A DNA stretch of 47,834 bases from Dehalococcoidia bacterium. GTDB taxonomy: Bacteria; Chloroflexota; Dehalococcoidia; Dehalococcoidales; RBG-16-60-22. The position numbers and the translations under genes are program-made. Below are positions 15,595-35,714 of this stretch, piece by piece; positions within the stretch are counted from its first letter, which is position 1; each line of letters opens with the position of its first letter. The notes below the pieces were generated by a model. That model searched no databases, had not been told where the DNA came from, and saw nothing but the letters and a program-made list of their open reading frames with translations. The DNA is taken from contig JAUXAC010000008.1 of the NCBI GenBank assembly GCA_030615035.1, positions 1 through 47,834 on the forward strand, read 5' to 3'.

Positions 15595-17001
15595 ATGGTT
15601 TCTACGCAAGGTGGACAAGAGAGTCAGCTCATTAAGGAGCTGGTTGCCACCGCCAGAAAAGTGCTGCCACAGTTGGAGAAGTATAATCAAGAACAAATCG
15701 ATGAAATAGTAACGGCAATTTCCTGGGTAGGCGGCAAACCAGGAAATGCTGAGTATTTAGCCAAACTGGCTACGGAAGAAACGGACTATGGGAACGTTGA
15801 AGATAAAATAAAAAAGATTCGGAACAAAACGAGAGGTACTTTAAGAGACCTTAAAGGCGAAAAAACTGTAGGCGTGATAGATGTGAATGAAAAGACGGGC
15901 ATTACCCGCATAGCTAAACCCAAGGGGATAGTGGGAGCTCTCATTCCGGTGACTAATCCGGAAGCAACCCCTATTCATAACGCAATGATTGCCTTAAAGG
16001 GAGCTAATGCGATAATATTCGCCCCTCATCCGCGTGGCAAAAAGACATGCGCCGAAGTAGTGCGCTTCATTCATGAAGAACTGGCTAAAGTTGGCGCTCC
16101 CCTAGAAGCGGTGCAGTACATTCCTGAACCCACCATAGAACTGAGTCAGGAACTTATGAGAAACGTCGATTTTGTTATTGCCACCGGGGGCGGAGCAATG
16201 GTCAAAGCTGCCTATAGCAGCGGAACACCAGCTATCGGTGTTGGGCCAGGAAACCCCCCAGTTATTATTGACTCCTCGGCAAATATTGACGACGCTGCTG
16301 AAAAAATATCTATCGGAACAATATTTGATTACAATAGCAGCTGTTCTAATGAAAGTTGTTTAATTATTGAAGACAGTATCTATGACGAGGTTCTTGAAAA
16401 GCTAAAAAACAAAGGGGGTTACTTATTATCTGACACAGAAAAAGGGAAACTGGAGAAAACCCTCTGGGTGAATGGGGTTCTGAATCGTGACGTAATCATT
16501 CGGTCTCCCCAAGTTATCGCCAGCAAAGCTGGTCTTAGCAAGGAGGCAGCACAGGCCAAGTTTTTCCTTGTCGAGGAAGAAGGAATAGGCAAGGATTATC
16601 CTTTTTCTCGAGAAAAACTGTCAGTTATACTGACACTCTATAACTATAGTACCTTTGAAGAAGCTATTGATAAGGTTAATCAAATCTGTTCTTTTAGCGC
16701 TCCAGGCCACTCCTGTGGCATTCACTCCCATAACGAGGAGCATATTCAAAGACTAGCCAAAGCTGTCCCGGTATGCCGCGTCCTGGTAAATCAGGTTCAT
16801 GTTTTTGGTAATGGCGGTTTCTTTAATAATGGACTATGGTTTACCCTATCGCTGGGGTGTGGTTCATGGGGGGGTACAACCACCGACGACAATTTAACTT
16901 ATTATCATCTCATTAATTACACTAAACTGGTGAGAACCATACCCGAGGTAATTCCTAACGATGAAGAATTGTGGGGAAACTACCTCAGAAAGTACGGTTA
17001 A
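15595..17001 (+). CDS. Acylating aldehyde dehydrogenase, sulfoacetaldehyde-type candidate
   Basis: This 468-residue CoA-acylating aldehyde dehydrogenase belongs to the group containing acetaldehyde dehydrogenase domains and sulfoacetaldehyde dehydrogenase (SauS). Visible are the N-terminal TRIAKPKGIVGALIPVTNP, TGGGAMVKAAYSSGTP for nucleotide binding, and the catalytic Cys250 in NSSCSNES. Such enzymes interconvert an aldehyde and its acyl-CoA with NAD(P). Its place directly after dsrMKJOP, with an aminotransferase, alanine dehydrogenase and ComA downstream, makes sulfoacetaldehyde to sulfoacetyl-CoA plausible. An ordinary acetaldehyde or propionaldehyde enzyme cannot be ruled out. GGGAGG precedes the ATG. 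Confidence 0.75.
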   Translation: MVSTQGGQESQLIKELVATARKVLPQLEKYNQEQIDEIVTAISWVGGKPGNAEYLAKLATEETDYGNVEDKIKKIRNKTRGTLRDLKGEKTVGVIDVNEKTGITRIAKPKGIVGALIPVTNPEATPIHNAMIALKGANAIIFAPHPRGKKTCAEVVRFIHEELAKVGAPLEAVQYIPEPTIELSQELMRNVDFVIATGGGAMVKAAYSSGTPAIGVGPGNPPVIIDSSANIDDAAEKISIGTIFDYNSSCSNESCLIIEDSIYDEVLEKLKNKGGYLLSDTEKGKLEKTLWVNGVLNRDVIIRSPQVIASKAGLSKEAAQAKFFLVEEEGIGKDYPFSREKLSVILTLYNYSTFEEAIDKVNQICSFSAPGHSCGIHSHNEEHIQRLAKAVPVCRVLVNQVHVFGNGGFFNNGLWFTLSLGCGSWGGTTTDDNLTYYHLINYTKLVRTIPEVIPNDEELWGNYLRKYG

Positions 17002-17009
17002 GTAAAGAC

Positions 17010-17040
17010 AAACTGCGGGGGCTCTTCCCCCAACCAGTTT
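17010..17040 (+). terminator. Strong hairpin after the aldehyde dehydrogenase
   Basis: AAACTG-c-GGGGG-ctctt-CCCCC-aac-CAGTTT forms a two-part stem 8 bp after the stop codon. There is no clear T tract, so it may be a weak or factor-assisted terminator or a 3'-stabilising structure. Confidence 0.5.
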
Positions 17041-17151
17041 ACACAACCTATTCACTTCAGGGTAGCTCCTTGTCAAATTATGCAGAAATAGCCACTAGAC
17101 ATCATTCGCATTAGATTTTCTCACGGGTGTGTTAGTTGGAAAACTGGTTTC

Positions 17152-17649
17152 TTATTTCTGGGTTTTGGTCGGTGAGGGAATATCAAAGTTACGGACGAGC
17201 TCGATAGTATCTAATAGGCTTACCGACCCTTTGATGATATCTAGGTTGACAAAGGCTTCACTTCTCAATACACCGGGGATGGTGGCCAGTTCGGTTTCCC
17301 AAAAGTGGGAATACTCCTCTGGCGAGCGGGTGACAACGATGGCGATGAGGTCAAATCTGCCGGTGACAAAGGCCAGGAAGCACACATGTTGATTCTGAGC
17401 TAGTTTCGTTGCCACTTTTCTCATATCTGCCACCGAAACCTGCACTGCCGTAATGCTTACGAAGCCATAACCCAGCTTACGCAGATTTGGCACAGCAACT
17501 ATCTTTATGATGTTCCTATCCAGAAGATGCTTAACTCTCTTCCGTACCGTGCCCTCAACCACCCCCAGCCCGCTAGCTAAGTCTACATAGCCCTTCTTGC
17601 CATCTTTTTGCAACTCCAGTATCAGTTTTCTATCAAGCTCGTCAGTCAT
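17152..17649 (-). CDS. Lrp/AsnC-family regulator (AldR-like position)
   Basis: This 165-residue feast/famine regulator has an N-terminal helix-turn-helix (about residues 4-55: DELDRKLILELQKDG, VVEGTVRKRVKHLL) and a C-terminal RAM/ligand-binding domain with the ITAVQV strand and the GRFDLIAIVV segment. It binds amino acids and controls nearby genes as oligomers. It is transcribed divergently from alanine dehydrogenase across 460 bp, the arrangement seen for AldR-type activators, so alanine-responsive control of ald is the best inference. GGGAGG lies before the ATG, and a promoter and palindrome lie upstream. Confidence 0.88.
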   Translation of the reverse strand: MTDELDRKLILELQKDGKKGYVDLASGLGVVEGTVRKRVKHLLDRNIIKIVAVPNLRKLGYGFVSITAVQVSVADMRKVATKLAQNQHVCFLAFVTGRFDLIAIVVTRSPEEYSHFWETELATIPGVLRSEAFVNLDIIKGSVSLLDTIELVRNFDIPSPTKTQK

Positions 17650-17679
17650 AGCAACCTCCCAAGTAAAGTTTGATAGTTA

Positions 17680-17707: not shown

Positions 17708-17722
17708 AGATAACTCAATGCC

Positions 17723-18060: not shown

Positions 18061-18110
18061 GTGGGGAAATAGAAGAAGAAAAAATTTAATATTAACGGGG
18101 GCTTAAAATA

Positions 18111-19229
18111 ATGATTATTGGTGTTCCTAAAGAAATAAAGACCGAGGAATATAGGGTTGGTGCCCCACCTATGGCAGCCGGAGTACTTACTCAGGCAGGT
18201 CATCAAGTGCTGGTTCAGACTAAAGCTGGAGATGGAAGCGGCTTTACTGATGAAGAGTATGCCAAGGTTGGAGCTACTATAGTAAGCACAGCTGAAGAGG
18301 TCTATGGTCAGGCAGAGATGATTTACCACGTTAAGGAACCGCTCGCTCCTGAATACCCGCTATTAAGGAGAGACCAAATTCTCTTTACCTATCTTCACCT
18401 GGCGGCAGCTAAGGAAGTAACGCAGGTGCTTATGGATAAGGGAGTAGTTGCTATTGCCTTTGAGACAGTGGAGCTACCCGATGGCACTCTGCCCTTGCTT
18501 GACCCCATGAGTCAGGTCGCCGGGAGACTAGCTACTCAGATAGCCGCTCAGTATCTTGGGAAAATGTATAAAGGCAGCGGGAAATTGCTGGGCGGTGTCC
18601 TGGGGGTGCCACCTGCCACTGTAGTCGTCCTCGGTGCTGGCAACGTGGGTGCCGGGTCTGCCAAGGTTGCTTACGGTATGGGCGCCCGCGTTATTATTGT
18701 CGACATAAGTGTCGAGCGCCTGCGCCACCTGAGTGAGGTATTGGGCGGTCACTGTGAGACACTAGTTTCAAATCCACATAATATTGCTAATGCGGTCAAA
18801 GAGGCGGATGTAGTCATTGGGGCGGTTCTAGTTAAAGGTGGTAGGGCACCTATTTTGGTTACCAGAGAGATGGTCAAAAGCATGAAGCCCGGTTCGGTTA
18901 TCGTTGATGTTGCCGTAGACCAGGGTGGATGTATTGAGACTACCCATCCTACCACCCATGATAAACCTACCTTTATTGTTGATGATGTTATCCACTATTG
19001 TGTTACCAATATGCCAGGAATGGTCCCCCGAACTTCCACCATGGCCTTATCCAATGCTACCTTGCCTTACGCCTTAAAGCTGGCCAATCTGGGTTATCTG
19101 AAAGCTCTGAGGTCCGATGAGTCATTGAGGAAAGGGCTTAATGTGTATAAAGGTAAAGTTACCAATAGATTGGTGGCTGAGTCACTTGGCTTAGAATATA
19201 CTCCTTTTGAACAGATAGAACGCACCTAA
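18111..19229 (+). CDS. ald: Alanine dehydrogenase
   Basis: This 372-residue enzyme interconverts L-alanine with pyruvate, ammonium and NADH. The N-terminal MIIGVPKEIKTEEYRVG block is diagnostic. The catalytic Lys lies in YHVKEP, His in LHLAAAK, and the Rossmann fold VVVLGAGNVGAGSAKVA near residue 170 binds NAD. In anaerobic taurine or beta-alanine use it regenerates the pyruvate amino acceptor from alanine made by an omega-transaminase, consistent with the class III aminotransferase 4 kb downstream. Regulation is probably by the divergent Lrp/AsnC protein and a leader terminator. Confidence 0.96.
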   Translation: MIIGVPKEIKTEEYRVGAPPMAAGVLTQAGHQVLVQTKAGDGSGFTDEEYAKVGATIVSTAEEVYGQAEMIYHVKEPLAPEYPLLRRDQILFTYLHLAAAKEVTQVLMDKGVVAIAFETVELPDGTLPLLDPMSQVAGRLATQIAAQYLGKMYKGSGKLLGGVLGVPPATVVVLGAGNVGAGSAKVAYGMGARVIIVDISVERLRHLSEVLGGHCETLVSNPHNIANAVKEADVVIGAVLVKGGRAPILVTREMVKSMKPGSVIVDVAVDQGGCIETTHPTTHDKPTFIVDDVIHYCVTNMPGMVPRTSTMALSNATLPYALKLANLGYLKALRSDESLRKGLNVYKGKVTNRLVAESLGLEYTPFEQIERT

Positions 19230-19315: not shown

Positions 19316-22300
19316 ATGAAGGCTGATACAGTTTGTCTCCGCTGTCACCAAAAGTGCGTTCTAACTGCGGAGGTCATTAACGGAAAAGTAGTAAGTGTTG
19401 TGGATGCGTCTCCGATAAACAGGATACCGCCCTGCAGTGAGGCTTGTCCCATAGGTATGGATATTCCTGGTTATGTCAACTCCGTGTCCCAGGGCAAGTT
19501 CAAGGAAGCTATGGAAATAATACGGGACACCAATCCTTTTCCTTCCGTTACCGGAAGGGTTTGCCACCATCCCTGCGAACTTGAGTGCCGTAGAATCGCT
19601 ATCGATGAACCTCTCGCAATTGAGTGGGTCAAACGGCTGGCGGCTGAGTATTCGCTGAAGTCTGAGGGGAAACCTGTTCCCGCCAAGAGGACGAAGAAGG
19701 AAGAGATTGCCATTATTGGTTCAGGGCCGGCCGGCCTCACTGCCGCCCACGACTTGGTGAAAGCGGGATACGGTGTTACCGTTTATGAAGCCGCCCCAGT
19801 GGCTGGCGGCATACTAGCCACAGCAATTCCCGAATTCAGACTTCCCCAAGCTACGGTTCAAGCCGACATCGATTATATTACGGCTCTAGGTGTACAAATT
19901 AAGACTAACACACCGATTGGCAAGAGCCTGACAATTGATAGCCTCCTCGAGAAGTATAACGCTGTCTTGGTCTCCGTTGGCTGCCAGAAGTCTGCCACCC
20001 TAGCTATTCCAGGCTCAGATTTGAATGGTATCTATTATGCCCTACCCTTCCTAAAAGATATCAAACAGGGCAAGAAGATTCGTCTTGGTGGCAAGGTCGT
20101 AATAATTGGTGGCGGTAATGAGGCTGTAGATTCAGCCAGGTGTGCCTGCAGGCTTGGTGCTGATGAAGTTACTATTGTCTACCGGCGCTCAGAGATGGAA
20201 ATGCCAGCCTGGCGCGAGGAGGTGGAGAATACCAAGAAGGAGAGTATCCAATTTAAATTTTTAACTAATCCGAAGAGATTTCTAGGCAACGAGCGGAACC
20301 AGGTGGTGGGTATAGAGTGCTATAAGATGGAGCTTGGTGAGCTTGATGAGACTGGCCGACCTCGCCCCGTTGCCATTCTGGGCAGCGAACACTCAATAGA
20401 TGCTGATGCGGTAATAGTCGCTATTGGTCAGACCGCCGACATCTCATCCCTGGGGGGAGATAGTAAAGTGAAGCTAACTCACCGCGGCACGGTGGTGGTC
20501 AACCCCGAGACCTTAGCCACCGATATTCCTGGTCTTTTCGCCGCTGGAGATGTTATCGTCGGTGCCGGCACAGTGGTAGATAGTATAGCCACCGGACGCA
20601 AGGCGGCTTCTTCCATCATCAAGTACTTGGGTGGTCCTGAGCCAGAGAAGCCGGAAACCAAGGAAGCACTCATGCCAGAAATAGTGACTGACTTCATCGG
20701 TGAAAAGAGCCGCCAAGGAATGCCCACCCTAACACCTGCTGAAGCTGTCGGCTCTTTCCAAGAGGTCAGGCTGGGTTACAGTGACCGGACGGGGATTGAA
20801 GAGGCTAACCGTTGTATGAACTGCGTTACCCAATGCATTAAAGGAGTGACCATCCCTGATGTCATGTATCATCCTAACCGATTACTGTATCCATTAAAGA
20901 GGGCTGGGGAAAGAGGAGAGGGCAAATGGGAGCGCATATCCTGGGATGAAGCTCTAAACACCATTGCCGGGAAATTGAAGGAGATAAAGGAGAAATACGG
21001 GCCAGAAGCTATCCACATCTCGTGTGGTTCGGGTCAAAAGCATGTCGGACTGGAGACTATATCGATAGCTGAGAAACTATGGCCCTGTCCAAATACTCAC
21101 TGGGGGCGGTATACCTGTCAAACTCCAGACGAATTTCAGAACTGGATAACTTTTGGAGACTCAATCACTTATGAGTTTGGACCAGACTACGAGCACTCAA
21201 AATGCATCGTGTTTTGGGGTTCAATCCCAGAAGTAGGTGTTCCATCTCAAACACGAGCGGTCTACAGGGGTCTGCGTAACGGGGCCAAACTGATAGTCAT
21301 TGACCCCAGACCGGTGCCCATGACGAAGAGAGCTAATATGTGGTTGAGGATTAGACCGGGAACAGATATGGCTTTGGCTTTAGCTATGGCGCACGTGATT
21401 ATAAATGAAGAGCTTTATGATAAAGAGTTCGTTGAGAAATGGTGCGCGGGGTTTGATAAACTGAAGGAGCATGTTCAAAAATATCCGCCCGGGTGGGCGG
21501 CTAAAGTAACCGGGTTATCCGAAGAGGATATAGTTAAGACCGCCAGGCTGTATGCCACTAATACACCCGGATGTGTTTACGTGCGATTAGGTGCCGGTGC
21601 TCAAATAATTACTTCCACTCAACAATCCAGAGCCATATCGATTTTAATAGCCTTATGTGGCAATGTAGATGTTCCCGGAGGCAACTTGTTATATTACCGG
21701 ACTTATCGCGACGTGCTGTTCTGGCATATCTATGACATGGATAAGGGTATTATGGGCCCCGCTTCCGTAGAGGCAAAGCGGATAGGAGCCAAGGAATATC
21801 CATTTATGCATAAGGGCAGGGTCTGTGACATCCCTGGTACTATCCGAGCCATGGGAGATGGCAGGGTTAAAGCGTTATGGTGTGTTTGCAATAATCTAAT
21901 CGTGGCGGAGATAGGTAGCTGGGAGATATGGGAAGTCATGAAGAACAAACTGGACTTCATCTTTGTATCAGAATTCTTCATGACACCAACCGCCGAACTG
22001 GCTGATATTGTGCTCCCAGCCGCTTTCTATCAGGAAATTGACTTGCTTGTCGGGGCTTTTGGCTATCCATCCAACTATATCTTCGCAGCGCAAAAGTTAG
22101 TAGAACCTCTGGGCGAATGTAAGGACGACAGGGAGGTAGCGATTGAGATAGCTGAAAGGATGGGAATGGACGTTACTCCCTGGGAGAGTGTTAAGGACTG
22201 GCTTAACTGGAGGCTGAAATACATGGGTCTCACCTACGATGAACTTTACCAGAGACCAGGCTCAAGGATAACACTGCCTAGAGAGTTCAGGCGATATGAA

Positions 22301-22846
22301 AAGAGTCAACCTCCTTTTGGCACTGCTAGCGGCAAAGTTGAATTATATTCATCAGTTTTTGAGGCGGTAGGATATGACCCATTACCTAACTACCAAGAGC
22401 CTCCTGATGGTCCGATAAGCACGCCCGAGCTCTTCAAGGAATTCCCCTTGATTTACACACATTATAGAACACTAAGCTACATGCACAGCGAGGGCAGGCA
22501 AATCGACCGCCAACGACGGTTAACCCCGGACCCCTACCTAGAAATTAATTCGGAAACAGCATCAAAACTCGGCATCAATGAAGGGGATTGGGTTTACCTT
22601 GAAACACCTAAGTCTAAAGGTAAATGGCGTATTACCTTTAAAGCACGGCTCATCCCTGAAATGCATCCGGATGTGGTCGCCGGACCCCATGGTTGGTGGT
22701 TTCCCGAGAAACCAGGACCGGAACATGGTTGCTTTGATTCAAATATAAATGCTGTGCTGACTCTTGACCCCCCCTACGACCCTGCCATAGGGGTTATGCA
22801 ATGTCGAGCCTTTCTCTGCCGGGTATGGAAGGCTGAATCTCAATAG
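19316..22846 (+). CDS. Molybdopterin oxidoreductase with nested GltD-like FAD/NAD(P) module
   Basis: This 1176-residue fusion begins with Cys7, Cys10 and Cys14 (CLRCHQKC) and EVINGKVVSV, the start of a molybdopterin-family [4Fe-4S] domain. Then comes a GltD-type module: a Cys-rich Fe-S part (residues 40-100: CSEACPIG, CHHPCELECRR), an FAD-binding motif GSGPAGLTAAHD (about 134) and an NAD(P) site IIGGGNEAVDSA (about 263). After CMNC (500-503) the interrupted domain resumes at Cys507-IKG with YHPNRLLYPLKRAGERG and the full molybdenum domain (to about 1000), then the C-terminal barrel. The substrate is unknown; it may couple NAD(P)H to an organic substrate or ferredoxin. It has no Tat signal, so it is cytoplasmic. 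Confidence 0.9.
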   Translation: MKADTVCLRCHQKCVLTAEVINGKVVSVVDASPINRIPPCSEACPIGMDIPGYVNSVSQGKFKEAMEIIRDTNPFPSVTGRVCHHPCELECRRIAIDEPLAIEWVKRLAAEYSLKSEGKPVPAKRTKKEEIAIIGSGPAGLTAAHDLVKAGYGVTVYEAAPVAGGILATAIPEFRLPQATVQADIDYITALGVQIKTNTPIGKSLTIDSLLEKYNAVLVSVGCQKSATLAIPGSDLNGIYYALPFLKDIKQGKKIRLGGKVVIIGGGNEAVDSARCACRLGADEVTIVYRRSEMEMPAWREEVENTKKESIQFKFLTNPKRFLGNERNQVVGIECYKMELGELDETGRPRPVAILGSEHSIDADAVIVAIGQTADISSLGGDSKVKLTHRGTVVVNPETLATDIPGLFAAGDVIVGAGTVVDSIATGRKAASSIIKYLGGPEPEKPETKEALMPEIVTDFIGEKSRQGMPTLTPAEAVGSFQEVRLGYSDRTGIEEANRCMNCVTQCIKGVTIPDVMYHPNRLLYPLKRAGERGEGKWERISWDEALNTIAGKLKEIKEKYGPEAIHISCGSGQKHVGLETISIAEKLWPCPNTHWGRYTCQTPDEFQNWITFGDSITYEFGPDYEHSKCIVFWGSIPEVGVPSQTRAVYRGLRNGAKLIVIDPRPVPMTKRANMWLRIRPGTDMALALAMAHVIINEELYDKEFVEKWCAGFDKLKEHVQKYPPGWAAKVTGLSEEDIVKTARLYATNTPGCVYVRLGAGAQIITSTQQSRAISILIALCGNVDVPGGNLLYYRTYRDVLFWHIYDMDKGIMGPASVEAKRIGAKEYPFMHKGRVCDIPGTIRAMGDGRVKALWCVCNNLIVAEIGSWEIWEVMKNKLDFIFVSEFFMTPTAELADIVLPAAFYQEIDLLVGAFGYPSNYIFAAQKLVEPLGECKDDREVAIEIAERMGMDVTPWESVKDWLNWRLKYMGLTYDELYQRPGSRITLPREFRRYEKSQPPFGTASGKVELYSSVFEAVGYDPLPNYQEPPDGPISTPELFKEFPLIYTHYRTLSYMHSEGRQIDRQRRLTPDPYLEINSETASKLGINEGDWVYLETPKSKGKWRITFKARLIPEMHPDVVAGPHGWWFPEKPGPEHGCFDSNINAVLTLDPPYDPAIGVMQCRAFLCRVWKAESQ

Positions 22847-22855: not shown

Positions 22856-23455
22856 ATGTCAGGAGAGTTGACAAAGAAAATAGAGGGAATACTTCAAATG
22901 CCTGCCGAAGAGTTAAAAGGAGCTTTACCTCTTACTCTTGATGAAATAGGCAACTACGGCATTGAAAAAATGCTGAAGGAAGTGCCAGATTTACTATCTA
23001 AGATAATAGGAAAGCTGATAGAAGTTGATGCGGCAAAGTTTATAAGTGAGGTGCCTGAAGCTTCAGACAAGTTCATGGATTTCCTATGGGAAGGCGTAGG
23101 CGTACTTGCTGTAAAATCTAAAGAGTTAATGTCAGAGTTAGAGTCGGAGAGATTGATGTCAGTGTTAAAGAGGACTAAGCAGCTAAATGTCAATATCGAA
23201 GCTTCGGATAGCCCTTTAAGCGGTCACTTCGCCATAAGCCAGGGAAAACTCTCCGGGGGTTCGGGGTTACTGCACTTTAAAGACCAGGATTTTAGGTTTC
23301 ATGGTCCCACGAAGATATTACTGAAATTATTGAGAGGTGAGCTCGCTTTGGGTTTTAGTGACCCGGAGCTTATGACAGATGGACATCCAGGGTTCGCACC
23401 CTATATCAGCCCGGTAATACAGGGAATATCTAAAACCATTAAGGGTAAACAGTAA
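22856..23455 (+). CDS. SCP2-like small protein, function unknown
   Basis: This 199-residue soluble protein has a helical N-terminal half (residues 1-110) and a C-terminal part resembling a sterol-carrier-protein-2 fold: LSGHFAISQGKLSGGSGLL, cut here to its pattern, then FHGPTKILLKLLRGEL and a PELMTDGHPGF loop. Such domains bind hydrophobic ligands. It starts 10 bp after the molybdo-flavoenzyme and 17 bp before the aminotransferase, so it is probably co-transcribed and may be a partner of the large enzyme. The family call is tentative. Confidence 0.55.
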   Translation: MSGELTKKIEGILQMPAEELKGALPLTLDEIGNYGIEKMLKEVPDLLSKIIGKLIEVDAAKFISEVPEASDKFMDFLWEGVGVLAVKSKELMSELESERLMSVLKRTKQLNVNIEASDSPLSGHFAISQGKLSGGSGLLHFKDQDFRFHGPTKILLKLLRGELALGFSDPELMTDGHPGFAPYISPVIQGISKTIKGKQ

Positions 23456-26487: not shown

Positions 26488-26641
26488 TATATATAAAAGA
26501 CTTTATTAGCCTTGAGGCCGAGCTAAGTACTAAGTTTGTCTAGCACTGAAATAATGTAGAAAAAGGGGGTGGTAATATAAGAAGCATCAATTTAGGAAGA
26601 AAACAGACTAAGACAAATTTTTAAAGAAAGGAGTGAAAAAG

Positions 26642-27769: not shown

Positions 27770-27800
27770 TCTTGAGTAAAAATTGGAGGGCGTATCCTTA

Positions 27801-28343
27801 GTGAAAGTTTGGAGCCAGATAGGCCAAACAATTGAGTCCACCAATGAATGGGCGGGGAGGGCAGTGTGGGTCGTTATCATCTACTTGATGTGTTTGGGTG
27901 TATTCGATGTAATGATGAGGTATCTGTTCAACAAGCCCTCTCTATGGATTTGGCTAACACTTCAGTTCGCTATGGTTACATTTGCTTGCCTTGGTGGGGG
28001 ATACGCCCTCCAAAAAGGCGCATTCGTCAAGTTAGACATACTCTACGGTCGCCTTCCTACTCGTACCAAGGCGATTCTTGATATAATTACTTTTTCCTTC
28101 ACTTTGCTATATTGTTCCGTATTGATATGGAAGGGGATAGAGGCAGCTAACGCATCTTTTACCATTCGCCAGATGACGTCAACTGCGATTCGGCTACCCC
28201 TCTACCACCTAAAGTCACTGATACCTCTGGGGGGTTTATTGGTTCTGCTGGTGGCAATAAAGAAATTTGTCCTAGATGTCAGGATAGTGCTCGGTAAAGG
28301 AGCAGTGCCGAGCGGAAGTAAGCCCTCTGGTTTTTTCTCTTAA
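27801..28343 (+). CDS. TRAP transporter small membrane subunit DctQ
   Basis: This 180-residue protein has four predicted transmembrane helices, beginning near residue 17 and including the typical VFDVMMRYLFNKPSLW segment. It bridges binding protein and channel subunit in TRAP systems. GTG at 27801 is taken as the start because GGAGGG lies about 10 nt upstream; the further-upstream TTG would overlap that site. It lies between dctP and dctM. Confidence 0.88.
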   Translation: MKVWSQIGQTIESTNEWAGRAVWVVIIYLMCLGVFDVMMRYLFNKPSLWIWLTLQFAMVTFACLGGGYALQKGAFVKLDILYGRLPTRTKAILDIITFSFTLLYCSVLIWKGIEAANASFTIRQMTSTAIRLPLYHLKSLIPLGGLLVLLVAIKKFVLDVRIVLGKGAVPSGSKPSGFFS

Positions 28344-28469
28344 GGTGGGGCATAAAGTCAAGAGTAGCAAAAGATAAAGAAGGATTTCAAGCCCTTTGCA
28401 TTAATAAGGTAAATGGCTAAGTGAGATTTATATGCTTAGGAATTTTAGAATTACCGGAGACACACGAGA

Positions 28470-29795
28470 TTGAGTGTTGAACTTATTACCATATTAATGT
28501 TTGTGTGCCTCTTTGGCTCCCTGTTCATGGGATTGCCTGTTGCCCTTGGTTTGGGTGGCACTGCAATTCTATTCGCCGTCCTGATGAGTCCCCGGACTCT
28601 CTTAGCTGCTGCTATGACCTTTTTTTACACTCCGTGGCAGGCTGTCCTTGTAACCGTCCCTATGTTCATTTTCATGGGGAATCTGGTGCGATATTCAGGT
28701 ATTGCCGACGCTGCCTATGATATGGGATACAAGTTGATTGGTAGTCTCAGCGGCGGACTGGCAATGGGAACTGTCATCATCTGCACCTTCTTCGCCGCTA
28801 TTACCGGGATAACTCCCCCAGCTACTATTACCATGGGACTGATAGCCATCCCATCTATGTTAAAGCGTAAGTACCATAAGACAATAGCCATTGGCTGTGT
28901 AGGAGCAGGGGGGGCACTGGGTGCCCTCATTCCCCCCAGCGTTCCCTTTATTTTCTACGGTGTTATCGCCAAGGAATCAATAGGGGCTCTATTTATGGGG
29001 GGAGTCATGCCCGGATTGTTGCTGGCTACCTTGTATATAAGTTACATTGGTATAAGGTGCAAACTGCAGCCGCACATGGGTCCGGCAATACCGCCGGAGG
29101 AGAGGGTCTCCTGGGGTGAGAAAGCCAAATCGGTCACCGCCATCTGGCCATTCCTAGTCCTTATCTTTATCGTTCTCGGCGTAATCTGGTTGGGAGTGGC
29201 AACGCCGACAGAGGCAGCCTGTTTTGGTGCTGCTGGCGCTCTTATCATTAATACTGTATACCGCAAACTCAGCCGGCAGGTGCTCAAAGACTCACTGTCT
29301 ACTACCGTTCAGCTAGCCGCTATGGGTGTGTGGATTCTTATTGGAGCTAACCTCTTTGTCAACGTCTTTAGCGCTTTAGGCTGCCAAGACGTGGTGACTT
29401 CAACTGTTCTGGCGATGCCCGGTGGCAGGTGGGGTATCCTGATTATGATGATGTTCGTTATCATGATACTTGGGTGTGTTATGGATGACTGGGCGATAAT
29501 AATGCTGGTTACTCCCCTGTATGTGCCTATAATTGTAGCTCTGGGCTTCAGCAAGCTATGGTTTGGCATCATTTTCATCGTCAATATACAGATTGCTTAC
29601 CTGTCGCCTCCCTTCGGCTTTGTCCTGTTCTGGCTGAAGGGTATTGTGCCGCCAGGTGTAACCATGGGAGATATTTACCGCTCAATTTTCCCCTTTACCA
29701 TACTTCAATTAATTGGCTTGACTTTATGTATAGTATTCCCCCAGATAGGTATGTGGCTTCCCGGCACAATGATTAAGAAGCCAATAGGAGCATGA
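28470..29795 (+). CDS. TRAP transporter large permease subunit DctM
   Basis: This 441-residue polytopic permease of the ion-transporter superfamily has about 12 hydrophobic segments. FMGLPVALGLGGTA at the N-terminus, GALIPPSVPFIFYGVIA near 155 and the conserved ATPTEAACFGA near 250 are typical DctM motifs. It starts with TTG, with GGAG 10 nt upstream. It moves the solute delivered by DctP, driven by Na+ or H+. A 126-bp gap after dctQ contains nothing recognisable. Confidence 0.93.
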   Translation: MSVELITILMFVCLFGSLFMGLPVALGLGGTAILFAVLMSPRTLLAAAMTFFYTPWQAVLVTVPMFIFMGNLVRYSGIADAAYDMGYKLIGSLSGGLAMGTVIICTFFAAITGITPPATITMGLIAIPSMLKRKYHKTIAIGCVGAGGALGALIPPSVPFIFYGVIAKESIGALFMGGVMPGLLLATLYISYIGIRCKLQPHMGPAIPPEERVSWGEKAKSVTAIWPFLVLIFIVLGVIWLGVATPTEAACFGAAGALIINTVYRKLSRQVLKDSLSTTVQLAAMGVWILIGANLFVNVFSALGCQDVVTSTVLAMPGGRWGILIMMMFVIMILGCVMDDWAIIMLVTPLYVPIIVALGFSKLWFGIIFIVNIQIAYLSPPFGFVLFWLKGIVPPGVTMGDIYRSIFPFTILQLIGLTLCIVFPQIGMWLPGTMIKKPIGA

Positions 29796-29903: not shown

Positions 29904-30899
29904 GTGCAAGAACTATATAAGCGGGCTGTTCAAGTTGTTAGAGCAAAGTTCGGCTTAGTGTCGAATAAGCGGGAATTAATATTTAACCCAGAGTTTTTTG
30001 AGAATCGCAAAGTTATACAGTGTCTATTAACTGATATATACCGAGTTGATGATATTCCCTTTAATGAAAAGTTGGATGCCTGTATTTATGTGCATGATGT
30101 TGAGGGTGTCCCACCAGCTGTTACCGTAACTAACCGAGAGGTACGGTTGGTGGGCAATATCAGCCAGCTCGATGCGCAGATGTCAGACAGGCGATATAGT
30201 CTCTTTGGCAACCTTGGGCTCTTCTTCAGATATTCCCTAGCTACTCTGGAGAGATATCACGATATTTTTAGTTTCCACGCCTCGGCAATGTACATCCCTG
30301 ACGAAGATGAGCTTCTTCTTCTCGTAGGTGGGGCCGGAGCGGGTAAGACATGTTTGTTGCTGGAGGGTTTGAATCGGGGGTATCAGATGTTCAGCACCGA
30401 GATGACCCACATCAAGTTTGAAGGCGATAAATGCCTCTTTTTCAAGGGTTCGCTCATTGATAATGTGCGGATTGGTAATTTCGTTTACGATTTCCCCACT
30501 GTGCCCCGGTTGCTGAACTTAAGGTTGCCTAAGGTTAAGGATATATGGAACACGAAGGTAACCGTTGACTTGCATGACAGGACTACCAGCGAGGATATTT
30601 TGGTCAATCCAAAGGTAACCCTAATATTTCCCAAAATAGAGGAGGGTCGTGACGAGGCTATTTTTGGGGATATCACTGACAAGCGCAAGCTGGTAAAGTC
30701 GCTTTTTGATAATGCCACGGAAAAAATTGCCAACACGGCTCTCCTGTACGATACCATCCCGGTAGGCTGTCTGGATAGTCCAGAGCTTATGCAGAAGCGG
30801 CTGAAGGCGATGGAAAAATTCGTTTCCGGTGAGCTTTTCGAAATTAAGAGGGCTAAAACAATCTTAGCTAGCCCAACAACTTGTATGAAGGAGGTGTGA
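29904..30899 (+). CDS. HPr-kinase/PEPCK-like P-loop protein
   Basis: This 331-residue protein has an uncharacterised N-terminal domain (about 1-125) and a C-terminal nucleotide-binding region: FHASAMYI, Walker A GGAGAGKT (Lys148-Thr149), then GYQMFSTEMTHI. This order (His box, P-loop, acidic box) is that of the HPr kinase/PEP carboxykinase-like superfamily, some members of which phosphorylate small molecules or Ser rather than HPr. No PTS gene is in the window. It ends where the ribosome site of comA begins, so the two are translationally linked. A small-molecule kinase acting on sulfolactate is a hypothesis from that linkage alone. GTG start. Confidence 0.6.
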   Translation: MQELYKRAVQVVRAKFGLVSNKRELIFNPEFFENRKVIQCLLTDIYRVDDIPFNEKLDACIYVHDVEGVPPAVTVTNREVRLVGNISQLDAQMSDRRYSLFGNLGLFFRYSLATLERYHDIFSFHASAMYIPDEDELLLLVGGAGAGKTCLLLEGLNRGYQMFSTEMTHIKFEGDKCLFFKGSLIDNVRIGNFVYDFPTVPRLLNLRLPKVKDIWNTKVTVDLHDRTTSEDILVNPKVTLIFPKIEEGRDEAIFGDITDKRKLVKSLFDNATEKIANTALLYDTIPVGCLDSPELMQKRLKAMEKFVSGELFEIKRAKTILASPTTCMKEV

Positions 30900-30900
30900 T

Positions 30901-31695
30901 ATGACTAAAGCATGGGAAGGATATGTCCCAATTCCAGTCAAGGGGAGAAGTGTTAAGCCGCGCACTTCAGGCTATACCATGGTCATTGAGAAAGGCTCGG
31001 GTATTAACGCCACTAAAGACTTGATGAACACGGCTGCCGATTATATTGATTCAGTTAAGAACACGTTCGGCACGGCGGCATTCCTGGACGAGAAGCTGCT
31101 CAAGGAGAAGATTGAGATAATAAAAGCGGCTGGGGTAGATGTCTATCCCGGTGGCACCTTCCTCGAAGCAGCGGTAGCTCAAGGAGCCTATGATAAATAT
31201 CTGGAAAGGTGCAAGCAGCTCGGATTTAACACTATAGAGGTCTCTGACGGGACCATTGAAATATCCAAAGAGCTTCGCAAAGAGCTAATTATCAAAGCCC
31301 TGGATAAGGGTTTTAAGGTAATCTCGGAAGTAGGCAAAAAAGACCCGAAAGACGACCCGCCTTTAGAAGTGAAGCTAGATTTAGTCAAATTTGACCTGTC
31401 GTTGGGAGTCTTTAAAGTTATTGTGGAAGCGCGGGAAGCCAGTAAAGGCGTGGGCATTTATGATGCTTCAGGGGCGGTAAAGGAATCTGAGGTAGATGCC
31501 ATTGTCGCCGGAGTTGACGATGTTAATGACCTGATTTGGGAAGCAGCCATTAAGAGTCAGCAGTTATTCCTTATTCGAAAGTTCGGCCCCAATGTTAACA
31601 TCGGCAATGTGCCCCCCGAGGACATCCTGGCTCTGGAAGCGCTAAGGTGTGGTCTACGCGGAGACACTCTAAAGGCAGCGGTGGCAAAGCTCTAG
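30901..31695 (+). CDS. comA: Phosphosulfolactate synthase, ComA family
   Basis: This 264-residue TIM-barrel enzyme adds sulfite to PEP to form (R)-2-phospho-3-sulfolactate, the first step of coenzyme M synthesis in methanogens and of sulfolactate formation in some bacteria. Family blocks are clear: KPRTSGYTMVIEKGSG, GGTFLEAA, LGFNTIEVSDGTIEI, GVGIYDASG and NVNIGNV followed by LEALRCGLRGDT. AAGGAGGTG precedes the ATG and it is coupled to the P-loop gene before it. Neither comB (phosphatase) nor comDE (decarboxylase) is present nearby, so coenzyme M synthesis is not supported. The reverse reaction would yield sulfite and PEP. Confidence 0.88.
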   Translation: MTKAWEGYVPIPVKGRSVKPRTSGYTMVIEKGSGINATKDLMNTAADYIDSVKNTFGTAAFLDEKLLKEKIEIIKAAGVDVYPGGTFLEAAVAQGAYDKYLERCKQLGFNTIEVSDGTIEISKELRKELIIKALDKGFKVISEVGKKDPKDDPPLEVKLDLVKFDLSLGVFKVIVEAREASKGVGIYDASGAVKESEVDAIVAGVDDVNDLIWEAAIKSQQLFLIRKFGPNVNIGNVPPEDILALEALRCGLRGDTLKAAVAKL

Positions 31696-31723: not shown

Positions 31724-31954
31724 ATGGCAAGAATTTACGTTAATGAGGATTACTGTAAGGGCTGTAACTTGTGCATACATTTTTGCCCCAAGAATGTGTT
31801 CGAGACTTCAACCAGGTTAAATAAGCGCGGGTTCCCTATGCCGACAATAGTCCACATTGAGGACTGTAATGCTTGTGGTGTGTGTGAGTTATTCTGCCCC
31901 GACTTCGCTATCGTGGTTGAAAAGGAGGAAAAGGAGGAGGTAGCCAAAAAATGA
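31724..31954 (+). CDS. 2-oxoacid:ferredoxin oxidoreductase, delta (ferredoxin) subunit
   Basis: This 76-residue protein carries two [4Fe-4S] motifs, CKGCNLCIHFCPK and CNACGVCELFCPD, as in KorD/VorD. It passes electrons from the TPP-bearing core to free ferredoxin. Its TGA overlaps the ATG of the alpha subunit (ATGA). It is the first gene of a four-subunit set that follows comA after 28 bp. Confidence 0.9.
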   Translation: MARIYVNEDYCKGCNLCIHFCPKNVFETSTRLNKRGFPMPTIVHIEDCNACGVCELFCPDFAIVVEKEEKEEVAKK

Positions 31955-33135
31955 TATCTGATGTTATTAAAGAGGGAGTGCATTTCGTTGAGGGTGATGA
32001 GGCGCTTGCTATGGGTTGTATTGCCGCTGGATGCCGATTCTGCTCCTTTTACCCCATCACACCGTTTAGTGAGTGCGCTGAAGCTATGGCTACCATGCTG
32101 CCAAAGCTAGGAGGAATAGCCATACAGATGGAGGATGAGATTGGCTCAATACATGCCGCTAATGGTGCCTCCATAGCTGGACTAAAGGCAATGACGGGTA
32201 CTTCCGGTCCCGGGTGCAGTGTCCACCAGGATGGATATGGCTGGGCAATAAAAAATGAGATACCGCTAGTCATTGTTGATGTGCAACGAGCCGGTCCCTG
32301 TAATGGGGTAGCCACCCTGGTTGGTCAAGGAGACCTTTATCAAGCCAAATACGGAACTCATGGTGGAAACTATGAAATTATTGCCCTCTCGCCGAGCACT
32401 GTCCAAGAGGTGTTTGACCTGGTAATTGAGGCTTTTAACCTGGCCGAAATATTCAGGCTCCCGGTTATATTCTTGATGGACGAGGTTACCGCCCACACCA
32501 GGGAAAAGTTGATTGTACCACCGTGGAGGGAGATAGAACCAAGAATAGTCGACCGCATAAGGAAACCAGATGTGCCACCTCAGGACTATAAATCCTTCGG
32601 GCATATAGCCACCCCCGAGGCAATTTCGGTTCCCTTCCCGGCGGCAGGTGATGGTTACGGTTTGTGTCTTTCTCCATATACTCACAACGAGATGGGCTAT
32701 CCTTCCACCGCCTTTCGGGAGCAGGATCGCATGGCGAGGCGGTTAATTCAGAAAGTCCGCGCCAATGCCGATAAGCTAGAAAAGTTTGAAACGGCATACC
32801 TTGATGATGCTAAATCAGCGGTTGTCTCCTACGGATGCTCGGCAAGGTCATCGTTAACCGCAGTAAAGAGGCTCAGGGAGGAAGGAGTAAAGATTGGCTT
32901 TTTCCGGTTAATAACCATCTGGCCGTTCCTCGATAAGCAGATTTATGAATTAGCCGAGGCGATGGATACTCTTTATGTGGTGGAATGTAATTTAGATGGG
33001 CAGTTATCCCGTGAGGTTCAACGGGCATCATTGGGTAAAGCCGAGGTAATACACATTGGGAAGGCTGGAGTTGAAATGCATACGCCGGATGAAGTGATAG
33101 AAGCGATTAAAAAACACACGGCTGTGACTAAGTAG
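31951..33135 (+). CDS. 2-oxoacid:ferredoxin oxidoreductase, alpha subunit
   Basis: This 394-residue subunit has the pyrimidine-binding domain of the PFOR superfamily: FYPITPFSECAEAMA near the N-terminus, QMEDEIGSIHAANGAS (the Glu region that activates TPP), TGTSGPGCSV, and a C-terminal transketolase-like domain II with VVECNLDGQLSREVQ. The set oxidatively decarboxylates a 2-oxoacid to an acyl-CoA with ferredoxin, and can run in reverse. The substrate is not determined by the sequence; 2-oxoglutarate/branched-chain type subunit layout is visible, and sulfopyruvate is a context-driven alternative. Confidence 0.92.
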   Translation: MISDVIKEGVHFVEGDEALAMGCIAAGCRFCSFYPITPFSECAEAMATMLPKLGGIAIQMEDEIGSIHAANGASIAGLKAMTGTSGPGCSVHQDGYGWAIKNEIPLVIVDVQRAGPCNGVATLVGQGDLYQAKYGTHGGNYEIIALSPSTVQEVFDLVIEAFNLAEIFRLPVIFLMDEVTAHTREKLIVPPWREIEPRIVDRIRKPDVPPQDYKSFGHIATPEAISVPFPAAGDGYGLCLSPYTHNEMGYPSTAFREQDRMARRLIQKVRANADKLEKFETAYLDDAKSAVVSYGCSARSSLTAVKRLREEGVKIGFFRLITIWPFLDKQIYELAEAMDTLYVVECNLDGQLSREVQRASLGKAEVIHIGKAGVEMHTPDEVIEAIKKHTAVTK

Positions 33136-33146: not shown

Positions 33147-33992
33147 GTGGTAACTGAGACGAAGATACATCCGCTTGTTGAGAAGTATTTTAGAATTGAC
33201 CGAATGCCTCACCTAGCCTGCCCGGGATGCGGGATAGGAATAGTTATGAACTATACCCTGAAGGTTATTGATGAGCTAGGTATAGACCCGCAAAAGTTTA
33301 CCTGGGTCACCGGGGTTGGCTGTAGCAGTAGACTCCCCTACGCTACCTGGCTGGGAGATTGTATTGATGCTACCCATGGGCGGGCGTTAGCTACGGCTAC
33401 CGGGCTTAAGCTAGCCCGGCCTGATTTGACAGTAATGGTCTATACTGGAGATGGTGACTGTCTATCTATCGGGGGTAACCATTTCATCCATGCCTGCCGG
33501 CGGAATGTTCCGGTTACGGTGGTAATGTTCAATAACATGATATACGGCATGACTGGAGGGCAGGTGGCTCCAACTACCCCGGTGGGTGCTGAAACCCAGA
33601 CCACTCCTTATGGTGATATTGAAGAGCCTTTTGATGGCTGCAAGCTGGCGGCGGCAGCCGGTGCGGTATATGCTTGCCGGTGGACTGTTTTCCAGCCCAA
33701 ACGCGTCATGTCCTCCCTCAAGAAGGGGCTACAGAAGAACGGCCTTTCCTATATAGAGATTTTTACCCCTTGCCCCACTCAATTTGGAAGGTATATCCTT
33801 AAGATCGGCGACCCGGTAAAGCTAGCCATCTGGACTAAAGAACAGACAGTTGACTTGAAGAAGACGGAGACAATGACCGAGGAGGAGTTGAAGGACAAAA
33901 TCATAGTTGGTGAGTACGTTGATATTGAGAAACCGAGTCTGGTTGACCGGTATGCCGAGCTGCTTGAAAAAGTCAAAGGAGTTAGTGCTTGA
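33147..33992 (+). CDS. 2-oxoacid:ferredoxin oxidoreductase, beta (TPP) subunit
   Basis: This 281-residue TPP-binding subunit contains LACPGCGIGIV (cluster/TPP region), the GDGDCLSIGGNHF motif that binds Mg-diphosphate and NNMIYGMTGGQ. It starts with GTG preceded by TAGGAGGTG. The layout is of the KorB/VorB type. A 12-bp gap separates it from the alpha gene. Confidence 0.92.
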   Translation: MVTETKIHPLVEKYFRIDRMPHLACPGCGIGIVMNYTLKVIDELGIDPQKFTWVTGVGCSSRLPYATWLGDCIDATHGRALATATGLKLARPDLTVMVYTGDGDCLSIGGNHFIHACRRNVPVTVVMFNNMIYGMTGGQVAPTTPVGAETQTTPYGDIEEPFDGCKLAAAAGAVYACRWTVFQPKRVMSSLKKGLQKNGLSYIEIFTPCPTQFGRYILKIGDPVKLAIWTKEQTVDLKKTETMTEEELKDKIIVGEYVDIEKPSLVDRYAELLEKVKGVSA

Positions 33993-33993
33993 G

Positions 33994-34551
33994 ATGAGAA
34001 CAGAAATCAGGTTAGCTGGCTTTGGTGGACAGGGGCTAGTTCTAGCCGGAATGGTGCTGGCTAGAGCTGCCGTTATGTATGCTGGCATAGAAGCGGTGCA
34101 GAGGCAATCTTATGGCACTGAGGCAAGGGGAGGAGCAAGCCGGTCAGAAGTTATAATTTCCGACCAAGTGATTGATTACCCTGGAGTGGTTTCAGGTAAG
34201 AATGACGTTCTGGTGGCTATGGGGGGAGCGGCGCTAACCAGGTATTTAAAGGATGTCAAACCCGGAGGGATAGTCATTTATGACCCCGACCTAATCTCAG
34301 ATGTGCCCAAGGATGTTGACGCTAAATTCTATGGAATTCGGGCAGCGGCAACTGCTGAACGCTTGGGGAGAAGGATCGTAGCCAACATGGTTATGGTTGG
34401 TGCCCTTACCGAACTAATCGGTGTCCTGCCCCCTGATGCAGTGAAAAAATCAGTGGCAAGTACCGTGAAAGCAGGAACGGAAGATTTAAACCTGAAGGCT
34501 ATTGATGCCGGCATTGCCGAAGCCAGGAGCTTGGCGGAGAAAGCAGCCTAA
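33994..34551 (+). CDS. 2-oxoacid:ferredoxin oxidoreductase, gamma subunit
   Basis: This 185-residue subunit has the GFGGQGLVLAGMVLARAA motif near residue 10 and YGTEARGGASRSEVIIS near 35, both typical of KorC/PorC gamma domains that contact CoA. ATG at 33994 is chosen because it follows the beta-subunit stop by 1 bp; longer frames would overlap it. The gene ends before a strong inverted repeat that separates it from convergent genes. Confidence 0.92.
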   Translation: MRTEIRLAGFGGQGLVLAGMVLARAAVMYAGIEAVQRQSYGTEARGGASRSEVIISDQVIDYPGVVSGKNDVLVAMGGAALTRYLKDVKPGGIVIYDPDLISDVPKDVDAKFYGIRAAATAERLGRRIVANMVMVGALTELIGVLPPDAVKKSVASTVKAGTEDLNLKAIDAGIAEARSLAEKAA

Positions 34552-34641
34552 AGTTGAAGCCTACCCAGTTAGTTCTAGAAATTCAGTCTACAATTTTTCG
34601 GTCTATCTCCAAAGTCAAAAGTAAACGTTACTAATGTTAGA

Positions 34642-34668
34642 GTGCCCAAGCTCTCCGAGCTTGGGCAC
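34642..34668. terminator. Bidirectional terminator between convergent operons
   Basis: A perfect 12-bp inverted repeat (GTGCCCAAGCTC / GAGCTTGGGCAC) with a 3-nt loop lies between the 2-oxoacid oxidoreductase operon and the convergent Ldh2 gene. No T tract follows on either strand. Confidence 0.65.
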
Positions 34669-34700
34669 CGACTTAAGGATAACACATCTTAACCGGAAGT

Positions 34701-35714
34701 TTAACCCCCTAGCTCGCAGAGCTGCTGCCAAAGCTTCTCGTCCAATGAAATTCCCTCCTTCATCCTTGTTGAGCGAGTTATCAGCTCTGGGTCACCGGGT
34801 AGATAAATCTGGGCAACTCCTGGAGCTTTCTTGCAGGCTTTGATTTGTTCCTGCAACCGCTCTACTCTGTCCAGGAAGTCCGGGGAGCTAGTGAACATCT
34901 GGGGGTCGATGGCGATAAAAAGGTCGCCTTTGGTGCAGATGTCCTCAGTATGTACTGTGCCTTTGACATCAGCTCCCACGGAAGCTCCGGCAAGGGCACC
35001 AGTTAAGACATCAATGGCGAAAGCCAAACAATAGCCCTTGGGACCAGCGATGGGGAGCAGAGCCCCTTCCAGTGCAGCTGCTGGGTCTTCAGTATCTGCC
35101 CCATCTTTATCTACTGCCCATCCCTTGGGTATTTTCTGCCCCTTCCGCGAGAACTCTAAGATCTTACCCCGGGCAACAACACTTGTCGCCAAATCAACCA
35201 CAATGGGCTCCCCTCTGGATGGAATTCCGACGCATATCGGGTTGGTGCCAAGAATAGCCTCCGCCCCACCCGGCGGGCTCATGGCTGGTTCGGTATTAGT
35301 AAAGGCAATGCCGATTGTTCCCTGCTTTGCCGCCTGCTCAGTATAGTAACCGAGGAAACCTATGTGGGAGGCATTTCTCAGGCTTACAATCCCGATACCA
35401 ACCTTATGTGCCTTTTCTATGGCTAGAGTCATAGCTTTCACCGCTACAATCTGGCCAATGCTATGCTTGGCATCTAATAATGCAGCGGCAGGGGTTTCTC
35501 GAACAACGCTTACCTCTGTGCTAGGGCTTATAGTACTTTTCTGTATGCCCTTCATAATGCCCAGTAGGCGCATGACGCCGTGAGAATCACGCCCCCTTAG
35601 ATTTGCCTCAACCAAATGGTCAGCAACTAGAGCCGCCTCACTTTCCAAGACCCCAGCCGATGTCAGGATTCCGATTGCCTTCTGCTTCAACTCTGTGGCA
35701 GTTACAACTTCCAT
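34701..35714 (-). CDS. Ldh2-family dehydrogenase, ComC/sulfolactate-type candidate
   Basis: This 337-residue NAD(P)-dependent 2-hydroxyacid dehydrogenase belongs to the malate/L-lactate dehydrogenase-2 family, which includes (R)-sulfolactate dehydrogenase ComC. Seen are GRDSHGVMR (His and substrate Arg region), ASHIGFLGYYTEQA, GTNPICVGIP, DLATSVVARGKI, PKGWAVDKDG and LPIAGPKGY. It would interconvert sulfolactate and sulfopyruvate, or malate/lactate and the oxoacid. It faces the comA/2-oxoacid oxidoreductase operon convergently, which makes a sulfolactate role reasonable but unproven. AAGGAGG lies before the ATG. Confidence 0.75.
   Translation of the reverse strand: MEVVTATELKQKAIGILTSAGVLESEAALVADHLVEANLRGRDSHGVMRLLGIMKGIQKSTISPSTEVSVVRETPAAALLDAKHSIGQIVAVKAMTLAIEKAHKVGIGIVSLRNASHIGFLGYYTEQAAKQGTIGIAFTNTEPAMSPPGGAEAILGTNPICVGIPSRGEPIVVDLATSVVARGKILEFSRKGQKIPKGWAVDKDGADTEDPAAALEGALLPIAGPKGYCLAFAIDVLTGALAGASVGADVKGTVHTEDICTKGDLFIAIDPQMFTSSPDFLDRVERLQEQIKACKKAPGVAQIYLPGDPELITRSTRMKEGISLDEKLWQQLCELGG

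Follow-up and report, generated by a model that had tools for sequence, protein, structure and literature searches.

As presented in the parts of PMC10507020 concerned, Taurinivorans muris respires taurine and sulfolactate; its taurine genes are co-encoded with a tripartite ATP-independent periplasmic (TRAP) transporter, tpa and ald, and its slcHFG-slcC-comC genes, for a tripartite tricarboxylate transport (TTT) importer and two dehydrogenases, feed the sulfo-lyase SuyAB. The parts of Wasmund et al. 2016 (PMC4959651) that deal with sulfite report dsr genes from a marine Dehalococcoidia cell and leave the source of sulfite open, since nothing in the incomplete genome would form sulfite from sulfate, thiosulfate or sulfonates. 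Here we analyse a 47.8-kb stretch of DNA from a Dehalococcoidia bacterium (GCA_030615035.1, contig JAUXAC010000008.1; hereafter the window), in which a dissimilatory sulfite reductase (Dsr) system is found together with ComA, a member of the phosphosulfolactate synthase family, and a P-loop protein predicted to have the fold of phosphoenolpyruvate (PEP) carboxykinase (PEPCK). From the sequences and a structure model we judge it rather probable that this P-loop/ComA pair produces PEP and sulfite from sulfolactate. Together with its uptake, racemase and PEP-consuming neighbours, the pair suggests a new, ATP-primed release of sulfite from small organosulfonates.

In the window the P-loop gene ends 1 bp before comA. 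Its 331-aa product matches nothing in Pfam at E values up to 0.1, the ATP-PEPCK family PF01293 included, and its AlphaFold model (predicted local distance difference test score 92.9) has a PEPCK fold. Foldseek matches to PEPCK span the model end to end and are stronger than those to HprK/P (E 1.1e-4), with about 11% identity to PEPCK in the structure alignment. The stretch holding FHAS and Walker A also matches PEPCK (E 1.4e-4, probability 52.8) in a single pairwise profile comparison made with a 28-row P-loop set; a 34-sequence set gave a probability of 0.1 against the PEPCK profile, in an alignment that was probably forced to be global, and a P-loop profile searched against PDB sequences found only weak Walker A matches (best E 0.11). 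Homologues of the P-loop protein number 406 at E <= 0.001, the closest named ones coming from a Dehalococcoidales metagenome-assembled genome (MAG; P-loop protein 88%, ComA 92%). ComA itself scores above the phosphosulfolactate synthase cut-off (TIGR03849, 322.9 against 280), matches PF02679 and aligns with 1qwg over residues 23-257, the motifs of 1qwg being kept.

We compared the window with loci (L-numbers) and genomes (G-numbers) from public records. One pattern scan of public genome contigs gave 27 P-loop loci (L001-L027); it was not exhaustive, because at least two P-loop genes of greater divergence (L134, L140) escaped it. The earlier note had listed the P-loop gene only as a candidate for conserved linkage to comA, and this linkage is present at 22 of the 27 loci (L001-L022), where comA lies downstream on the same strand, in both Chloroflexota and Desulfobacterota-type records. 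The gap measures -29 to +9 bp at 13 of these loci and 81 to 406 bp at eight; the value for L001, -194 bp, comes from a generous open reading frame (ORF) start. This pairing exceeds chance. The mirror-tree correlation of P-loop protein and ComA is 0.925 (22 of 25 pairs, three being left out with ComA cut at contig ends), a value uncorrected for shared ancestry that we do not take as proof. Loci L023-L027 (36-42% identity to the P-loop protein; L027 truncated) have no adjoining ComA, and a search across their five genomes found none anywhere; some of these Chloroflexota/Anaerolineae loci have solute-binding, DsbA-like, mannosyltransferase-like or phosphoesterase-like genes nearby. The P-loop gene is patchily distributed, being present in 8 of 8 genomes from the class of G022 and in 1 of 393 sampled from the class of G001 (G001 itself).

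The genes around the pair in relatives, together with the PEPCK fold, are what the present analysis adds to the earlier note. Counts over L001-L022 are lower bounds, since many loci are short. Pyruvate phosphate dikinase (PPDK) is encoded directly upstream of the pair at seven of the 22 loci, a LarA-type nickel racemase nearby at seven (in divergent orientation in L016), and TctC/TctA transporter genes occur at several. A PGDH-like member of the D-2-hydroxyacid dehydrogenase family, to which SlcC also belongs, lies within the cluster at nine loci, and L001 has a ComC-type dehydrogenase, the counterpart of the window gene at the same place (69% identity). In L134, genes for TctA and TctC (both by similarity), an HpaI-type aldolase, a D-2-hydroxyacid dehydrogenase, LarA, the P-loop protein (32%), pyruvate kinase and ComA (49%) are consecutive on one strand. 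In L133, from the same genome (G003), LarA, pyruvate kinase and ComA (50%) are accompanied by a class II aldolase, with no P-loop gene within the stretch, and L140 is an extra divergent pair with LarA (P-loop 43%, ComA 45%). Both pyruvate kinases (409 in L134 and 393.8 in L133, against 306.4 for TIGR01064) and both ComAs of L133 and L134 score above the curated cut-offs for their families; the scores of the racemases and of the HpaI-type aldolase stay below. Pyruvate kinase burns PEP, the substrate of ComA in its known direction, and would thus compete with synthesis in the same operon, which favours elimination. In L004 (12297-15205) a LarA-type racemase gene is apparently broken by an IS1595-family transposase gene.

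From this gene content, linkage and predicted fold we infer substrates and reaction directions as follows. The PEPCK-fold P-loop kinase would use ATP to phosphorylate the 2-hydroxyl of (R)-3-sulfolactate, and ComA would eliminate sulfite from the resulting 2-phospho-3-sulfolactate to leave PEP. Pyruvate kinase or PPDK, seen beside the pair in relatives and not in the window, would convert PEP to pyruvate and regain ATP, closing a cycle (sulfolactate + ATP -> phosphosulfolactate -> PEP + sulfite -> pyruvate + ATP) in which kinase, ComA and PEP consumer stand in for the sulfolactate sulfo-lyase SuyAB; PPDK could recover the ATP likewise, with AMP and pyrophosphate. SlcC-like or ComC-like dehydrogenases and LarA-type racemases would yield the required hydroxyacid from sulfolactate of either configuration or from sulfopyruvate, and the freed sulfite would pass to DsrAB. 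The earlier note had already put forward phosphorylation, elimination by ComA and recovery of ATP from PEP, a sequence that gains support from the kinase-fold gene before comA, from PPDK and from pyruvate kinase in one P-loop operon. In their outer parts the P-loop clusters appear similar to the sulfolactate set of Taurinivorans muris, with SuyAB seemingly exchanged.

All genes named in the earlier note are present in the window, namely those for Dsr, the SauS-like enzyme, aminotransferase, alanine dehydrogenase (Ald), TRAP uptake, ComA, the four-subunit 2-oxoacid:ferredoxin oxidoreductase (Kor) and the ComC-family dehydrogenase (Table 1); dsrABCN and dsrMKJOP lie at about 2.4-15.5 kb, outside the positions 15595-35714 that it had given. 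Within these 47.8 kb the ORFs were scanned partly with Pfam and partly with NCBIfam, some lying outside the scan (e.g. 40244-41970). Among the scanned ORFs none exceeded the cut-off of models for sat, apr, qmo, Xsc, glycyl-radical enzymes, SuyB or CuyA, in line with the earlier description of a Dsr system with neither sulfate activation nor a known sulfite-releasing enzyme. A 68-aa ORF between dsrN and dsrB (7267-7473), considered as DsrD, has as its sole match a FaeA-like one just below cut-off. Across the 27 genomes dsrA exceeds its cut-off in 11, all among the 22 that hold the pair, and AprA in one of the 22 (G017); thus 10 of the 11 have no AprA over cut-off and, allowing for gaps in MAGs, appear to reduce sulfite and not sulfate. 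The linkage of comA with dsrAB, for which the earlier note had suggested a search, is real and rare, being seen in the window, L016 and L017. In L017 (8201-16771) the pair is flanked up to dsrAB by genes for a fumarase-like alpha subunit, a beta-like ORF (by position), FrdA-like and FrdB/Rieske proteins and cytochrome b, and an entry from 3-sulfopropionate through sulfoacrylate to sulfolactate can be imagined by analogy.

Several findings weigh against the proposed sulfite release, of which the first concern the kinase and the supply of Dsr and others are given with the alternatives below. By eye, no counterpart of the metal-binding lysine of PEPCK is evident in the P-loop protein. No dsrA over cut-off was found in the other 11 of the 22 pair genomes (G001, G002, G004-G010, G013, G021). 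In the 393 genomes sampled from the class of G001, dsrA exceeds its cut-off in ten, all of which lack a P-loop gene (at most four or five candidates scored per genome), and G001, the sole carrier, is itself without dsrA over cut-off. The DNA around the dsr genes of these ten (5.4-19.9 kb) holds no relative of the P-loop protein, ComA, Kor, SauS, aminotransferase or TRAP at E <= 1e-10. The pair is therefore not a general sulfite source in that class, and a general link there between P-loop gene and dsr was not found.

Upstream of sulfolactate the window invites a longer route, already sketched in the earlier note, in which TRAP uptake, the aminotransferase, Ald and the SauS-like enzyme would bring a two-carbon (C2) sulfonate such as taurine in as sulfoacetyl-CoA and Kor would carboxylate this to sulfopyruvate. 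Taken whole, from taurine or sulfoacetate through sulfoacetyl-CoA (by SauS-like enzyme, CoA transferase or SucCD-like ligase, depending on lineage), CO2 fixation by Kor, sulfopyruvate and sulfolactate to PEP and sulfite by kinase and reversed ComA, and on to Dsr respiration, this route is doubtful. We see close to an even chance that the dehydrogenases, Kor and transporters serve only sulfolactate and pyruvate metabolism (pyruvate to acetyl-CoA), that SauS-like enzyme, aminotransferase, Ald and the methylmalonate-semialdehyde dehydrogenase (MMSDH)-type enzyme form a separate beta-alanine or taurine module, and that sulfoacetyl-CoA is not carboxylated at all; this is compatible with a core of kinase and reversed ComA. 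Aminotransferase, MMSDH-type enzyme (TIGR01722 over cut-off) and Ald also suit beta-alanine breakdown, and a Kor that is accompanied in relatives by a SucCD-like ligase or a CoA transferase suits the formation of acetate from pyruvate. However, the window KorA and KorB score with 2-oxoacid and 2-oxoglutarate types and not with pyruvate types, and the SauS-like protein scores best as sulfoacetaldehyde dehydrogenase, although just short of the cut-off (NF047625, 591.4 bits against 600); its nearest solved chain by sequence is an acetylating succinate-semialdehyde dehydrogenase (8cei). The ComC-family protein likewise falls below the (R)-sulfolactate dehydrogenase cut-off (NF040650, 382.3 against 500).

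Kor is also tied to the pair by linkage, at eight of the 22 loci once longer stretches were taken, and by descent; its linkage to comA, like that of a 2-hydroxyacid dehydrogenase, thus recurs in relatives. A search for KorA in 17 pair genomes gave matches in 16, and a tree was built from 30 loci (one or two from each genome, out of many more matches) with the window and L021. A 13-row clade with support 100/100 unites the window and every KorA on a P-loop contig with G003_C62, G012_C545, G015_C26 and G022_C159, the other sampled paralogues falling outside, so the system includes, across many lineages, a Kor from a single orthologous clade. The Kor genes of G012 and G015 are adjoined by other cluster genes and that of G003 by TctA/TctC; that of G022 is at a contig end. 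Against this, a strict label of presence on a P-loop contig requires six changes on the tree, equalled by 76 of 500 shuffles, because four clade rows on broken contigs counted as unlinked, as did a second row for the linked G021 gene. The possible acyl-CoA supply differs by lineage (SauS-like enzyme, CoA transferase, SucCD-like ligase), which fits either carboxylation of sulfoacetyl-CoA or oxidation of pyruvate.

The sharpest rival to release by ComA is that a SuyB-like protein in the cluster could be the real sulfo-lyase. Proteins of the SuyB/UxaA family (PF04295) occur in 20 of 23 pair-bearing relatives and are encoded within the cluster in G009, G012 and G014 (the last cut by a contig edge); three of them, scanned with NCBIfam, matched only the galactarate dehydratase model, far below cut-off, so that SuyB is not separable from UxaA. 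In G011 and G013, however, there is no room for a SuyB-like gene between Kor and the next cluster gene. Standard Xsc was rejected as the sulfite source: none of the 23 genomes has it over cut-off (TIGR03457), and weaker matches occur in all 23 and likewise in 14 of 14 controls. Glycyl radical (PFL-like) proteins are present in 12 of the 23; at the seven of these 12 loci that were scanned no IslA model is among the matches. Of the seven enzymes, that of G010 is HypD over cut-off, L109 of G003, a dsrA-bearing Chloroflexota genome with the pair, encodes the (2S)-3-sulfopropanediol dehydratase HpsG (1138.4 against 1000), and the remaining five match nothing more specific than the general subfamily model. 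Three glycyl radical proteins compared with PDB chains ranked other glycyl radical enzymes over the IslA chain 7kq3. The cleanest case is G019, with dsrA and the pair, no PF04295 protein, no Xsc or AprA over cut-off and, of two glycyl radical enzymes, one that is nearer to glycerol dehydratase than to IslA.

It is improbable that the pair works in synthesis, with ComA adding sulfite to PEP, the P-loop protein dephosphorylating the product by HprK/P-like phosphorolysis, and sulfolactate passing through sulfopyruvate to sulfoacetyl-CoA for an osmolyte, a cofactor or sulfite detoxification. In the part of PMC5695019 that covers ComA, the enzyme is described in the synthetic direction only. PPDK can also run toward PEP and so supply it, the P-loop fold matches HprK/P, if more weakly, and Kor, SucCD-like ligase or CoA transferase could work oxidatively. 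ComB-family phosphatases (PF04029), which a synthetic pathway would need, occur in 10 of the 22 pair genomes, but none of the 10 has ComB and ComA on a common contig, and no relative of ComA is encoded in the DNA flanking ComB in four genomes (L040-L043). The pyruvate kinases adjoining comA in two G003 loci, the uptake systems and racemases of the clusters and the Dsr linkage in three places also argue for elimination. In L040 and L041 ComB is followed, in the same order in both genomes, by a 382-aa protein of no assigned function and a ComC-type dehydrogenase.

Just as improbable is a pair acting on another 2-hydroxyacid, such as malate or glycerate, as a kinase and a ComA-family lyase whose leaving group is not sulfite. 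Malate racemase is the best-scoring model for the LarA proteins (its cut-off is exceeded in L018 but not in L133, L134 or L140), so another hydroxyacid than sulfolactate may be the substrate; L002 has an enolase gene divergent to the pair, paralogues of the ComA family have expanded to 11 places in G003 and five in G017, and P-loop homologues without ComA exist. Against this stand the ComAs of the window, L133 and L134 above the phosphosulfolactate synthase cut-off, the conserved 1qwg motifs, and the Dsr linkage, with dsrA mostly unaccompanied by aprA. That the P-loop protein is an HprK-type regulatory protein kinase next to an ordinary biosynthetic ComA, as its HprK/P match could imply, is very unlikely and was rejected on the stronger, end-to-end PEPCK matches, beside which stand the metabolic neighbours and the close spacing to comA.

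A second, divergent ComA-family group scores about 150-210 bits against 265-320 for the main group, and its genes adjoin TctC/TctA-like uptake genes at 7 of 10 loci (L131, L135, L136, L137, L138, L144 and L145; not L141-L143). This suggests further uptake-linked ComA-like enzymes.

Table 1 Features of the window, with the evidence for each assignment.
Feature	Position	Strand	Basis
DsrC	5288..5605	-	PF04358
DsrN-like CbiA amidotransferase	5829..7250	-	CbiA domain
DsrB	7539..8603	-	NIR_SIR domain; 81% identity to L016 gene
DsrA	8634..9803	-	NIR_SIR domain; 76% identity to L016 gene (L016 DsrA over dsrA cut-off)
DsrMKJOP	10583..15511	+	M, K, O, P by domains; J by position only (no Pfam match)
SauS-like CoA-acylating aldehyde dehydrogenase	15595..17001	+	best NCBIfam score NF047625
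Lrp/AsnC-type regulator	17152..17649	-	below curated cut-offs
Alanine dehydrogenase (Ald)	18111..19229	+	TIGR00518, 508.1 > 391.85
GltD-like NAD(P)-binding and formate-dehydrogenase-alpha-like fusion	19316..22846	+	family scans
199-aa protein, no family	22856..23455	+	family scans
Class III aminotransferase, of taurine or beta-alanine type	23472..24818	+	family scans
MMSDH-type CoA-acylating aldehyde dehydrogenase	25010..26380	+	TIGR01722, 477.6 > 448.5
TRAP uptake DctP, DctQ, DctM	26633..29795	+	family scans
P-loop protein, PEPCK fold; proposed sulfolactate 2-kinase	29904..30899	+	AlphaFold model
ComA (phosphosulfolactate synthase family); proposed direction PEP + sulfite	30901..31695	+	TIGR03849, PF02679
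KorD, ferredoxin subunit	31724..31954	+	Fer4 domains
KorA, 2-oxoacid:acceptor oxidoreductase alpha subunit	31951..33135	+	NF006412, 434.5 > 411
KorB, beta subunit (thiamine pyrophosphate)	33147..33992	+	best NF007207, below cut-off
KorC, gamma subunit	33994..34551	+	best NF006323, below cut-off; ORF listed from 33907, model match from residue 30
ComC-family (Ldh_2) dehydrogenase, convergent; proposed sulfopyruvate/sulfolactate dehydrogenase	34701..35714	-	PF02615

The fusion of a GltD-like flavoprotein and a formate-dehydrogenase-like molybdopterin protein could provide low-potential electrons or CO2. At 33-2040 a tRNA-Met and a phage-type integrase ORF (1090-2040) form a possible mobile-element edge adjoining the dsr block, and 36338-40169 holds a sugar-acid set of a KduD-like short-chain dehydrogenase, a 2-keto-3-deoxygluconate kinase-like protein, 2-keto-3-deoxy-6-phosphogluconate aldolase and a second Ldh_2 dehydrogenase.

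To our knowledge, the known sulfite-releasing enzymes cleave an unphosphorylated sulfonate (SuyAB, Xsc, IslA, CuyA) or require oxygen. An ATP-primed elimination that yields PEP would be a different solution, and in the open-licence PMC literature, the larger result sets being covered in part, we found no description of a sulfolactate kinase or of such a sulfonate pathway. If the proposal holds, it would assign a role to a so far unnamed family of kinase fold and provide a sulfite source to Dsr-bearing Chloroflexota without sulfate activation; if the full C2 route held as well, carbon would be gained as PEP from a two-carbon sulfonate and CO2.

With SlcC-ComC-SuyAB, as the relevant parts of PMC10507020 (Taurinivorans muris) and PMC12421959 (Paracoccus wurundjeri) present it, the proposed system shares TRAP or TTT uptake, two hydroxyacid dehydrogenases, sulfite and pyruvate as products and, in the anaerobe, transfer of sulfite to Dsr. 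Here, by contrast, a PEPCK-fold kinase, ComA and a PEP consumer would replace SuyAB, and a LarA-type racemase appears instead of or beside the dehydrogenase pair. Taurine respiration in Bilophila and Taurinivorans (Tpa-Ald-SarD-IslAB or Xsc) likewise brings aminotransferase, Ald, TRAP and Dsr together, whereas the window has no recognised Xsc or glycyl radical enzyme and holds a SauS-like enzyme and Kor. ATP-PEPCK resembles the P-loop protein in fold over its whole length and in the stretch with FHAS and Walker A, and PEP is the proposed pathway product; ATP-PEPCK has about 530 residues, however, and the far shorter P-loop protein, dissimilar in sequence, would only phosphorylate, leaving C-S cleavage to ComA. 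With the coenzyme M enzymes ComA, ComB and ComC the locus shares a ComA that scores above the family cut-off and a ComC-family dehydrogenase nearby, with no ComB among the scanned ORFs or on the ComA contigs of the 10 relatives that have one; the kinase-fold partner, the PEP consumers of relatives and the uptake genes also set it apart, and the direction proposed is the opposite.

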